Origin: a virus
DNA length: 36,741 nucleotides
Strand: one strand, 5' to 3'
Virus record (IMG/VR): IMGVR_UViG_3300018018_000452
Location: 1-36,741 of that record
Shown: positions 11,540-33,782 of the stretch, piece after piece
How positions within the stretch are numbered: position 1 is the first letter of the stretch
How the letters are laid out: each line of letters starts with the position of its first letter
Notes under the pieces: generated by a model
The model's input: the letters and a program-made list of their open reading frames with translations, nothing else
What the model was told of the DNA's origin: nothing
Database searches by the model: none
Translations under genes and position numbers: made by a program

Positions 11540-11560
11540 ATGAACAATGAACAAAAAACA
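11540..11560 (+). repeat. Repeat family R4, AACAATG type, at a start codon
   Basis: ATGAACAATGAAC overlaps the start of the radical SAM gene, so residues MNNEQ are repeat-derived. Other copies are at 16219-16250, 29577-29604 (inverted) and 33716-33782. Confidence 0.6.
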
Positions 11561-12301
11561 ACTGACATTGGGAAATGCCGGGCGATTTACAGGCCGCGGG
11601 GAAGGGCGGGGGAATATAGCCCTCTTGCACTGAACCTCTATACCGGATGTCATTGCGGCTGCAAATACTGCTATGTGCCGAGGTGCATACGGACCGACAA
11701 ACAGAAATTTCATTCGGACATCAGGGTCCGCAGAGACATAATCGAAAAAATTCAGCATGATATCGAGAGAGTTCAAATCACCGAGCCGGTCCTGTTGTGC
11801 TTTACATGCGACCCGTATACGCCGGAGGTCGAGACAGACCCCTATAATATGACGACATTAAAGACACTCGGAATACTCACGGCGGCAGGGGTGAATTTCC
11901 AGATATTGACGAAGGCGGGAAAGAGGGCGTGCAGAGACTTCGCACTTTATAAAAAAGGCGACAAGTTCGCAACGACATTGACGTTTTACGATGCCGTTAA
12001 ATCGCTGATGACAGAGCCGAATGCGGCACTGCCGAATGAAAGAATCGAGACGCTCGCAACGGCAAAAAAGCACGGTATCGAGACGTGGGTGAGCTTCGAG
12101 CCGGCACTCGATGAGGAACAGATACACCTGCTGCTTACGGCGTCGGCACCATATACGGATTTCTATAAAATCGGCAAGGTCAGCGAATATAAAAGCGAAA
12201 TAACGGACTGGAAGGGATTTGCAGAACGAGTGACGAGACATTTAGATGTGATTGGAAAGCCGTATATGCTTAAAGAAGATTTGAAGGTTTATATGAAATA
12301 A
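11540..12301 (+). CDS. Radical SAM protein, spore photoproduct lyase / Rv2578c-like
   Basis: A 253-residue protein. LNLYTGCHCGCKYCYVP (32-48) contains the CxxxCxxC 4Fe-4S cluster motif (Cys37, 41, 44). It is followed by VLLCFTCDPYTPEVETD, the segment LGILTAAGVNFQILTKAG, and ETWVSFEPALDEEQIHLL. This matches the SPL-like radical SAM group often found in phages. True spore photoproduct lyase repairs thymine dimers; activity of phage homologues is not established. It sits directly after the methyltransferase block, so a nucleic-acid substrate is plausible. Its ATG lies in a R4 repeat and the ribosome binding site is weak. Confidence 0.85.
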   Translation: MNNEQKTTDIGKCRAIYRPRGRAGEYSPLALNLYTGCHCGCKYCYVPRCIRTDKQKFHSDIRVRRDIIEKIQHDIERVQITEPVLLCFTCDPYTPEVETDPYNMTTLKTLGILTAAGVNFQILTKAGKRACRDFALYKKGDKFATTLTFYDAVKSLMTEPNAALPNERIETLATAKKHGIETWVSFEPALDEEQIHLLLTASAPYTDFYKIGKVSEYKSEITDWKGFAERVTRHLDVIGKPYMLKEDLKVYMK

Positions 12302-15639: not shown

Positions 15640-15666
15640 TGAATTATGATTTATAATTTATGATTT
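15640..15666 (+). repeat. Repeat family R1 copy
   Basis: GAATTATGATTTATAATTTATGATT directly after the terL stop codon. Confidence 0.7.
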
Positions 15667-15679
15667 GAAAGGAATCAGA

Positions 15680-15976
15680 ATGAATAAGCAAAGACAGAAC
15701 ACAGAAAACAGAACACAGAAAATAAAACATCCAGGCGGGATAGAAGGCGAACGGGTGGGAAATGAAAAAGCGCCGGTCGATGACAAGGTCGATAAGTCGG
15801 TCGATGAGTCAGTCGAGGAACAAAAGGATGTTTATTCTTTTCCGACGCGGTCGCGATGTCCGCGGTGCAAAACAACAGACACGATAGCTACTGAAACCCG
15901 TGGCAAGATACAACGAAGACAATGTCAAAGAGCAATATGCAGGTGGAAATATATAGTCTACGGGACAAAAATATGA
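15680..15976 (+). CDS. Small zinc-ribbon protein (98 aa)
   Basis: GAAAGGAATCAGA gives a good ribosome binding site for the ATG at 15680. The N-terminus (MNKQRQNTENRTQKIK) is encoded by R2 repeat (15695-15722). A charged linker with Val-Asp repeats (DDKVDKSVDESVEEQ) follows. The C-terminal 45 residues form a zinc ribbon: CPRC, 17 residues, CQRAIC, then RWKYIVYG, similar in style to Com-like or transposase-type ribbons that bind nucleic acid. Role unknown. It closes the terminase operon before the promoter at 16038. Confidence 0.65.
   Translation: MNKQRQNTENRTQKIKHPGGIEGERVGNEKAPVDDKVDKSVDESVEEQKDVYSFPTRSRCPRCKTTDTIATETRGKIQRRQCQRAICRWKYIVYGTKI
15695..15722 (+). repeat. Repeat family R2 copy (translated)
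   Basis: CAGAACACAGAAAACAGAAC-type array in frame in the gene at 15680. Confidence 0.7.
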
Positions 15977-16004
15977 AAATTTCTACTAAACTTAGTAGAA
16001 ATTT
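15977..16004 (+). promoter_or_regulatory. 13-bp perfect palindrome after the terminase operon
   Basis: AAATTTCTACTAA 15977-15989 is exactly inverted at 15992-16004 around the two bases AC. It starts one base after the stop codon of the gene at 15680 and lies 34 bases upstream of a -35 box. A symmetric AT-rich site next to a promoter suggests a repressor or activator operator. As RNA it would be a hairpin with only TTT at its end. It also contains AATTTCTACTAA...GTAGA, reminiscent of a Cas12a direct repeat. Confidence 0.5.
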
Positions 16005-16013
16005 GCATAAACA

Positions 16014-16057
16014 CACTATATTTGGGATGAATTCGGGTTGACATACCATATATAGTG
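16014..16057 (+). promoter_or_regulatory. Inverted repeat flanking the -35 box
   Basis: CACTATAT 16014-16021 and ATATAGTG 16050-16057 are perfect 8-bp inverted repeats. One half lies upstream of the TTGACA and the other in the spacer, a typical place for regulator contacts or DNA looping. Confidence 0.4.
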
Positions 16058-16066
16058 GACGATATT
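16038..16066 (+). promoter_or_regulatory. Sigma70-type promoter for the head operon
   Basis: TTGACA (16038-16043, perfect consensus), a 17-bp spacer, and GATATT (16061-16066, four of six consensus). Transcription would start near 16073 and give a leader of about 180 nt before the ATG at 16252, containing leader element copy 1. This is the clearest promoter in the window. Confidence 0.6.
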
Positions 16067-16099: not shown

Positions 16100-16108
16100 A
16101 TAGAATTA

Positions 16109-16205
16109 AAAAGTGAATAATAGCCCTTCGGACTGATCACCCGGCGGGACAAAACGAAAAACAGAGCGGCTGGTAGGAGCCGAACCCTCCACCAGCCGCT
16201 TTTTA
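16109..16205 (+). promoter_or_regulatory. Leader element, copy 1 (before gpW-like/portal)
   Basis: AAAAGTGAATA (16109-16119), CTGATCAC (16133-16140), GGCGG (16143-16147) and a terminator-type hairpin whose CGGCTG begins at 16167. The same ordered parts recur at 21594 and 28350. This copy lies within the transcript expected from the promoter at 16038, 46 bases ahead of the first head gene. It looks like an attenuator or antitermination site acting as RNA. Confidence 0.7.
16165..16205 (+). terminator. Intrinsic terminator of leader element 1
   Basis: A 10-bp stem 16165-16174 with 16191-16200, a bulged A, then GGAG 16176-16179 with CTCC 16187-16190, loop CCGAACC, followed by TTTTT. Confidence 0.75.
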
Positions 16206-20364: not shown

Positions 20365-20395
20365 TAACTGGTAACTGGTAATTGGTAATTGGTAA
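20365..20395 (+). repeat. Repeat family R3, GGTAATT type
   Basis: Tandem TAACTGGTAACTGGTAATT-type heptamers directly after the protease stop. Other copies are at 22863-22879, 22921-22949, 31795-31838 and 32784-32820. Confidence 0.75.
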
Positions 20396-20441
20396 AATAA
20401 GTCCTCAAAATATAAGGGACACAGAATAAAGGAGTAAAACA

Positions 20442-21593: not shown

Positions 21594-21701
21594 AAAAGTA
21601 AATAGACAGTTATACGGGTCCGCCGGCGGCTGATCACCAAGGGCGGCGAAAAGACAAATTAACGGCTGATAGGGGCCTATCCTCCTGTCAGCCGTTTTTT
21701 T
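21594..21701 (+). promoter_or_regulatory. Leader element, copy 2 (before the major capsid gene)
   Basis: AAAAGTAAATA (21594-21604), CTGATCAC (21630-21637), GGCGG (21642-21646) and the terminator hairpin from 21661. Here CCGCC (21620-21624) can pair with GGCGG around the CTGATCAC box, placing it in a loop. The spacing between the first two boxes is longer than in copies 1 and 3. The element fills the middle of a 294-base gap. The remainder, 21702-21833, holds a GGTCGCCAGTCTCTGGTCGC repeat-like stretch and an A/G-rich ribosome binding region, with no gene. Confidence 0.7.
21661..21701 (+). terminator. Intrinsic terminator of leader element 2
   Basis: A 9-bp stem 21661-21669 with 21688-21696 closed by a T-G pair and a short inner AGG/CCT helix, followed by seven Ts. 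Confidence 0.8.
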
Positions 21702-21833
21702 GTGCCCGTGAAAACAGCAGATGGTCGCCAGTCTCTGGTCGCTGGCTGAAGGAATGAGGCCGGGAAAAAAGAAAACAGAAAAAAGAAAAAATAAAAACCG
21801 GGATAGCCGGAAAAATTGAAAAGGAGAATACAA

Positions 21834-27179: not shown

Positions 27180-27182
27180 AAC

Positions 27183-27216
27183 ATTTATGATTTATGAATT
27201 ATTAATTATGATTTGA
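27183..27216 (+). repeat. Repeat family R1 copy
   Basis: ATTTATGATTTATGAATTAT plus ATTATGATTTGAGATT just upstream of the gpZ-like start at 27226; no clear Shine-Dalgarno exists there. Confidence 0.7.
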
Positions 27217-27225
27217 GATTTGAAA

Positions 27226-28317: not shown

Positions 28318-28349
28318 AGACAGAAATCAGAATATAGAACACAGAATTA

Positions 28350-28445
28350 AAAAGTAAATAAAAACCCAATGAACTGATCACTCTGAGGGCGGCAATGGAA
28401 ACGAAACGGCTGATAGGAGCTGAAATCCTGTCAGCCGTTTTTTTT
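28350..28445 (+). promoter_or_regulatory. Leader element, copy 3 (before the tail tube gene)
   Basis: AAAAGTAAATA (28350-28360), CTGATCAC (28374-28381), GGCGG (28388-28392) and the terminator hairpin from 28404. CCC 28365-28367 can pair with GGG 28387-28389 across the CTGATCAC box. The terminator ends only six bases before the AAGGAG of the tail tube gene, so termination or read-through here would directly control that gene. Confidence 0.72.
28404..28445 (+). terminator. Intrinsic terminator of leader element 3
   Basis: A 10-bp stem 28404-28413 with 28431-28440, inner AGGA/TCCT, loop GCTGAAA, and eight Ts (28438-28445). Confidence 0.82.
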
Positions 28446-28464
28446 ATTTTAAGGAGAAACAAAG

Positions 28465-31793: not shown

Positions 31794-31794
31794 A

Positions 31795-31838
31795 GGTAAT
31801 TGGTAATTGGTAAAAGGTAACTGGTGAATGGTAAATAG
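31795..31838 (+). repeat. Repeat family R3 copy before a start codon
   Basis: GGTAATTGGTAATTGGTAA followed by AAGGTAACTGGTGAATGGTAA words, ending three bases before the ATG at 31842. Confidence 0.7.
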
Positions 31839-31841
31839 CAA

Positions 31842-33712: not shown

Positions 33713-33715
33713 AGA

Positions 33716-33782
33716 AGTTCATAGTTGATAGTTCAGAGTTCATCGAAATCAATCAACAATGAACAAAGGACAATGAACAATG
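33716..33782 (+). repeat. Repeat family R4 copy supplying SD and start codon
   Basis: Inverted words (GTTCATAGTTGATAGTTC) then direct words (CAACAATGAACAAAGGACAA TGAACA) ending in the ATG of the next gene. AAAGGA inside the repeat is correctly placed as Shine-Dalgarno. Confidence 0.7.

Follow-up and report, generated by a model that had tools for sequence, protein, structure and literature searches.

The window analysed here, a stretch of 36,741 nucleotides (positions 1 to 36,741 of virus record IMGVR_UViG_3300018018_000452), carries three copies of a structured RNA element, each located in front of a structural module of the late operon. Judged from its sequence, each copy would be an attenuator in the 5' leader of such a module, with a factor-dependent antitermination based on an alternative hairpin (AT) that can be formed within the 5' arm of the terminator-like hairpin. 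This is the best-supported reading, and we give it slightly less than an even chance. It retains one half of the proposal made in an earlier note on this DNA, a regulated terminator (attenuator) or a put-like site, and is favoured by the terminator anatomy, the position inside the operon, the pairing kept through sequence change, the existence of homologues and the alternative hairpin in the 5' arm. The put-like half is not supported, since the element carries a putative terminator of its own and recurs within the late operon.

Direct reading of the sequence recovered all three copies at the places where they had been described, with a shared order of AAAAGTRAATA (at 16109, 21594 and 28350), CTGATCAC (at 16133, 21630 and 28374), GGCGG and a hairpin with T5-T8 after it. 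The distances from CTGATCAC to CGGCTG claimed for them, 34, 33 and 33 nt, were obtained again on re-reading, and the two compensatory pairs claimed for the copy 1 stem, G16166-C16199 and G16173-C16192 versus A-T, are correct. Exact CTGATCAC sites occur three times in the window, each within an element. On the other hand, GGCGG is not the separate motif it was taken for: it makes up the 3' strand of the P1 stem. Taken alone, AAAAGTRAATA has little specificity; in copies 1 and 3 it forms part of a weak outer helix.

All three copies and their parts lie on the + strand. Copy 1 (16108..16204; covariance model R1, E 1.6e-14) precedes a gpW-like ORF and the portal gene, and comprises a P1 hairpin, CCCTTCGGA-CTGATCA-CCCGGCGGG (16124..16148, loop 16133-16139), and a terminator-like hairpin, P2, with its U-tract (16164..16204), the 5' arm of which contains the alternative hairpin CGGCU-[GGUAGG]-AGCCG of 5 pairs (16167..16182). 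Copy 2 (21614..21709; R1, E 1.8e-16), before the major head gene, is closed by an outer helix (P0) of ACGGG (21614-21618) and CCCGT (21705-21709). Its P1 (21620..21646), a manual pairing that differs from the minimum-energy fold, consists of CCGCC/GGCGG, a 3x3 internal loop and GG/CC around the loop CTGATCA (21630-21636), a layout that recurs with changed letters in a relative, L026b; the alternative hairpin is GGCU-[GAUAGG]-GGCC (21664..21677), and P2 with its U-tract spans 21661..21701. Copy 3 (28349..28449; R1, E 1.2e-13), with a weak A/T-rich outer helix, stands before a tail-tube-like gene. Its P1 is weak, and again paired manually in departure from the minimum-energy fold (28365..28389; CCC/GGG and GA/TC, loop CTGATCA at 28374-28380); it is followed by the alternative hairpin CGGCU-[GAUAGG]-AGCUG (28407..28422; 5 pairs including one G.U) in the P2 hairpin with U-tract at 28404..28445. 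The downstream genes are those previously named, a small gpW-like ORF with the portal, the major head protein and the tail-tube-like protein, the gpW label being given from size and position only, without a family match.

The description of these copies as a three-copy family was too narrow, as further phages, some of them unrelated, also carry the element. When 2.9 million viral contigs (IMG/VR) were scanned for patterns, at first for CTGATCAC plus a hairpin arm and later for the arm plus a T-run, 16 core elements were obtained, namely the three window copies and those on 12 further contigs, one of which carries two; since the patterns were exact, the family has at least this size. A scan without the outer GGC of the arm and demanding more loop matched only contigs already known. 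One relative, L016, was reached through the TerL of the window (66% identical in the best segment) and carries its element at the corresponding place, in front of a gpW-like gene. A search with covariance model R1, a check that had been proposed at the outset, matched one extra divergent copy, L064, in the record of L027. In L017, a relative by its major head protein, the layout before gpW is analogous, the P2 sequence is unrelated and the inner hairpin is marginal only. Identity between most members is only about 55-70%, and the elements group by slot, copy 2 with L022 and L026b (0.92 and 0.79) and copy 1 with L016 and L026a (0.73 and 0.72).

That the element falls in no known family holds for Rfam 15: a scan of the window at the gathering threshold gave no matching family, and E-value scans of copies 1 and 3 with 14 relatives gave sub-threshold matches only. 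No credible match was obtained by BLASTN of the consensus P2 against phage and plasmid collections, the arm is absent from 301 genomes belonging to the same phylum as an Anaerolineaceae MAG (Chloroflexota) and from 9 genomes of a small phylum, and a text search of open papers found no such RNA family. The pattern used originally, AAAAGTRAAT..CTGATCAC..GGCGG, was discarded, its matches in viral and genome collections looking like chance occurrences within coding sequence. The style of the sequence suggests, as an impression only, Planctomycetota as the host phylum.

The gene after nearly every element is structural or has a role in packaging (terminase, portal, protease, capsid or tail tube), and these genes are often non-homologous. 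Terminase lies downstream of L030 and L032, portal downstream of L033, gpW and portal downstream of L016, L026a and copy 1, protease downstream of L034 and L064, and tail proteins downstream of copy 3, L027 and L031. The major head proteins that follow copy 2 and L026b (phrog_1005), L022 (phrog_371) and L028 (phrog_10) belong to unrelated PHROG families. L029 precedes an HNH-like gene, by the reading of its translation. After L021 comes a large ORF that weakly matched a PHROG of unknown function. Copy 2 and L022 have in common a 96-bp block, 95.8% identical, whose borders are the ends of P0, and the proteins on both sides of it are unrelated between the two phages; to go by this comparison, the head gene has been replaced and its leader kept. 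The leader of the major head gene (21614-21828) has, besides the 96 bp, a 43-bp block in common with L022 before the ribosome-binding site, and this block holds a small CCGG-GATAR-CCGG hairpin. The upstream ORF ends at most 31 nt before the element in 10 of the 17 elements, and the start codon is located 6-58 nt past the U-tract in 15 of them. Since there is usually no space for a promoter between the upstream gene, the element and the downstream ribosome-binding site, polymerase must pass the putative terminator; the exception is copy 1 with its orthologues, where a TTGACA promoter stands before the element.

The 5' arm of P2, CGGCUGRUAGGRGCC, is nearly invariant, and every one of the 16 core members has a G+C-rich hairpin directly abutting the U-tract; within the window, the P2 sites are the strongest sites of this kind. 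The 3' arm varies almost only by changes that preserve pairing (29 G.U-type cells versus 5 unpaired), and does so on the sense strand only. As G.U wobbles are mismatches on the opposite strand, selection acts on the sense RNA, which argues for an RNA element rather than a DNA operator. Moreover, the 5' arm can fold on itself as AT, GGCU-[GRUAGG]-RGCC, in 16 of 16 core members, a fold that excludes the terminator, and the divergent L064 has a CGGCA/UGCCG hairpin at the same position. The AT pair cells are standard throughout (64/64 over 16 members), and 1-8% of shuffled arms are equally stable as AT, whose stability alone is weak (-4.8 to -7.5 kcal/mol). In prefix folding the arm makes AT first, and the terminator can take over only about 10-14 nt later. 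Most members were retrieved with a pattern fixing the arm letters, so that the conservation of the arm is partly ascertained; the window copies, L016 and L064 are less biased in this respect, and less biased support for AT comes from copy 3, where a C-to-U change keeps a G.U pair, and from copies 1 and 3, which gain a fifth pair. AT appears to account for the one-sided conservation of the arm better than a plain terminator does.

Sequence located before P1 or P2 pairs with sequence just past the U-tract, so that P0 forms only in read-through RNA. In a swap test own partners beat swapped ones (p about 0.01-0.02), by which the helix is modestly supported as real, and a long continuous helix arises in many members through pairing of A-runs with the U-tract. 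The P2 arm and loop also contain a dyad, GRTAGG-AG-CCTAYC. In 13 of 16 members its two halves are complementary throughout, the variable position being A-T or G-C, and in copies 1 and 3 the dyad is broken. It is perhaps a second transient or competing hairpin or a DNA site.

P1 is a hairpin with a 7-nt loop, and CTGATCA is that loop. CUGAUCA is found in the window copies, L016, L021, L022 and L034, and the loops UUGAUCA, UCGAUCG, CUGAUCC and CCGAUCA among L026a, L026b, L028 and L064; the remaining members have other P1 loops or no P1. As in copies 2 and 3, P1 of L022 and L064 was paired by hand and is not the minimum-energy fold, and z-scores over the P1 region were mixed. GATC is depleted about six-fold in the window (24 seen versus 139 expected), and all three P1 loops of the window retain it. 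Its retention despite the depletion is independent evidence that the loop matters in the window phage. In the most GATC-depleted records (L017, L029, L030 and L032) the loop is without GATC or P1 is absent. The avoidance of GATC, which suggests restriction pressure, is equal or stronger in several related records (2 versus 107 in that of L032), and CATG is depleted about three-fold in the window.

The arrangement of the element can be compared with that of several known systems. The ANTAR leaders (nasF, amiE, eutP/G/S/A) likewise contain a P1 hairpin and, after a linker, another small hairpin that overlaps the 5' arm of an intrinsic terminator; in eut, such leaders recur in front of several genes within one cluster (PMC3369936). 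However, the critical A1 and G4 of both hairpin loops of ANTAR targets (PMC3369936) are absent from the phage loops YYGAUCA (7 nt) and GRUAGG, and judged by this published loop rule the phage element is no ANTAR target. The LicT/BglG RAT is alike in principle, a protein-stabilised hairpin mutually exclusive with the terminator, but its stem is larger and has two asymmetric internal loops, whereas the phage AT is a hairpin of 4-5 bp. The conAn, GafZ and lambda Q systems also have several terminators inside a long transfer or virion operon, where antitermination is needed; their terminators, in contrast, are not reported to form a conserved RNA family that shares an invariant 5' arm, and no homologous factor was identified in the phages studied here. 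HK022 put resembles the element as a phage multi-hairpin RNA tied to antitermination, and is a ~70-nt two-stem RNA located just downstream of early promoters (PMC9378689). Nevertheless, put serves early genes, has no terminator of its own and acts via the zinc-binding domain of polymerase beta' (PMC9378689), whereas the phage element is located at late genes, has a terminator-like end and recurs in the operon. Among 14 phage records, some of them fragments, no ANTAR domain was found, and neither a CAT domain (LicT-type), with one sub-threshold fragment match, nor a NusG domain was found above cut-off; these domains therefore offer no candidate for a phage-encoded factor.

In the attenuator proposed here, the nascent RNA would by default fold the long P2 hairpin followed by the U-tract, and RNA polymerase would halt. 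AT, arising first during transcription from the P2 5' arm, would exclude the terminator, and a trans-acting factor, either host-made or a phage protein of an unrecognised kind, would bind the P1 loop YYGAUCA together with AT, holding the latter so that polymerase proceeds, in the way of ANTAR or LicT antiterminators. Structural genes would then be read only with the factor active, and leaky transcription would be blocked. Against this reading, several members lack P1 or carry a different loop in it, and the P1 of copy 3 is weak. A wider proposal, possible but doubtful, would be that of an antitermination system common to unrelated phages, perhaps of one host lineage, in which a putative RNA-binding factor reads the P1 loop and the hairpin with the GRUAGG hexaloop, ANTAR-like in layout and not in loop sequence, and gates each late structural module separately. 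If true, this would be a previously undescribed cis-regulatory RNA family for late genes in phages of uncultivated bacteria, retained even though the capsid, portal, terminase and tail genes behind it have in places been replaced by unrelated ones. It would point to an antiterminator, possibly host-encoded, and makes the concrete prediction that read-through depends on two short loops.

Alternatively, P2 might be an ordinary intrinsic terminator, constitutively shielding each module from spurious transcription. A processive system of the Q, GafZ or conAn kind would then act on polymerase a single time, at the late promoter, to make it resistant to terminators, and P1 and AT would be no local switches; this is unlikely, if not without appeal. 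Copy 1 and its orthologues are in line with it, since a zinc-ribbon gene and, after it, a conserved TTGACA promoter precede them in a layout resembling lambda Q-pR'-tR'. Precedents are provided by the conjugation operon of pLS20, which contains >20 terminators as well as conAn (PMC8955417), and by the CcGTA cluster with GafZ (PMC11150451). However, any stable hairpin would suffice for such insulation, which leaves unexplained both the alternative hairpin and the letter-for-letter conservation of the 5' arm and P1 loop in unrelated phages. The location of the element directly before the ribosome-binding site, the modest support for a P0 confined to read-through RNA and the continuous helix built by A-run/U-tract pairing would also suit a function in mRNA processing or stabilisation, the long P0+P2 hairpin being cut (e.g. 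by RNase III, as in phage T7 sites) or shielding the 5' end to produce stable structural mRNAs, with termination incidental. We consider this distinctly improbable: processing needs no U-tract abutting a G+C-rich stem, yet every core member has one, the invariant 5' arm is again left without explanation, and high expression is not needed for terminase or protease.

The block common to copy 2 and L022, with its borders at the outer helix and unrelated proteins on both flanks, would be expected if the intergenic hairpins, while having ordinary terminator activity, were mainly sites of recombination between phage modules. However, the compensatory changes in pairing and the wobbles on the sense strand indicate selection on RNA structure and not on DNA identity, and with the low identity between most members they make such a role very unlikely. 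That the element acts on RNA polymerase by itself, so that later terminators are ignored, is scarcely credible; it is a multi-hairpin RNA, and copy 1 lies shortly past a likely promoter, but besides its own terminator-like end and its recurrence it lacks P1 in some members, and put comprises two stems within 70 nt and is found at early promoters (PMC9378689). Further candidates were rejected. GGCTGATCACC and TAGGGG resemble the 16S rRNA 3' end in reversed order, and stem pairing accounts for most of the likeness; in a T-box the UGGN core would be kept, and here it is not (UGAU in several), nor is there an Rfam match; no consistent ORF was seen for a leader peptide; and a DNA operator is disfavoured by the strand-specific wobbles.

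Upstream of copy 1, a candidate late promoter (16038..16066, + strand) consists of TTGACA, 17 nt and GATATT, and was aligned with L016 and L026. Inverted repeats AAATTTCTACTAA/TTAGTAGAAATTT lie upstream of TTGACA in the region 15976-16066; their letters differ in L016 and L026, and the dyad is retained. A conserved ATAT-GTG block is located between -35 and -10 of this promoter, and Q-type factors bind between -35 and -10 (PMC11150451). By these features, the region looks like an activator-controlled late promoter. The preceding gene (15665-15976) encodes a small zinc-ribbon protein, CPRC...C....C, with a low-complexity N-terminus and no confident Pfam match; L016, L026 and L017 also have it between TerL and the gpW-like gene, and it is a candidate late-gene activator. 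As a general P1 binder the protein was rejected, because it is limited to the window's own lineage, and Ogr/Delta was rejected for want of a Pfam match.

Elsewhere in the window, the short degenerate repeats GGTAATTGGTAA, ATTTATGATTTATG and AACAATGAACAAAGGACAATGAAC form intergenic filler between many late genes (20365-20441, 27180-27219, 31794-31841 and 33713-33779). A putative radical-SAM-like protein with a weak Pfam match is encoded at 11540-12301, and its BLAST-linked cluster, the widest non-structural one, comprises six of the compared phage records.
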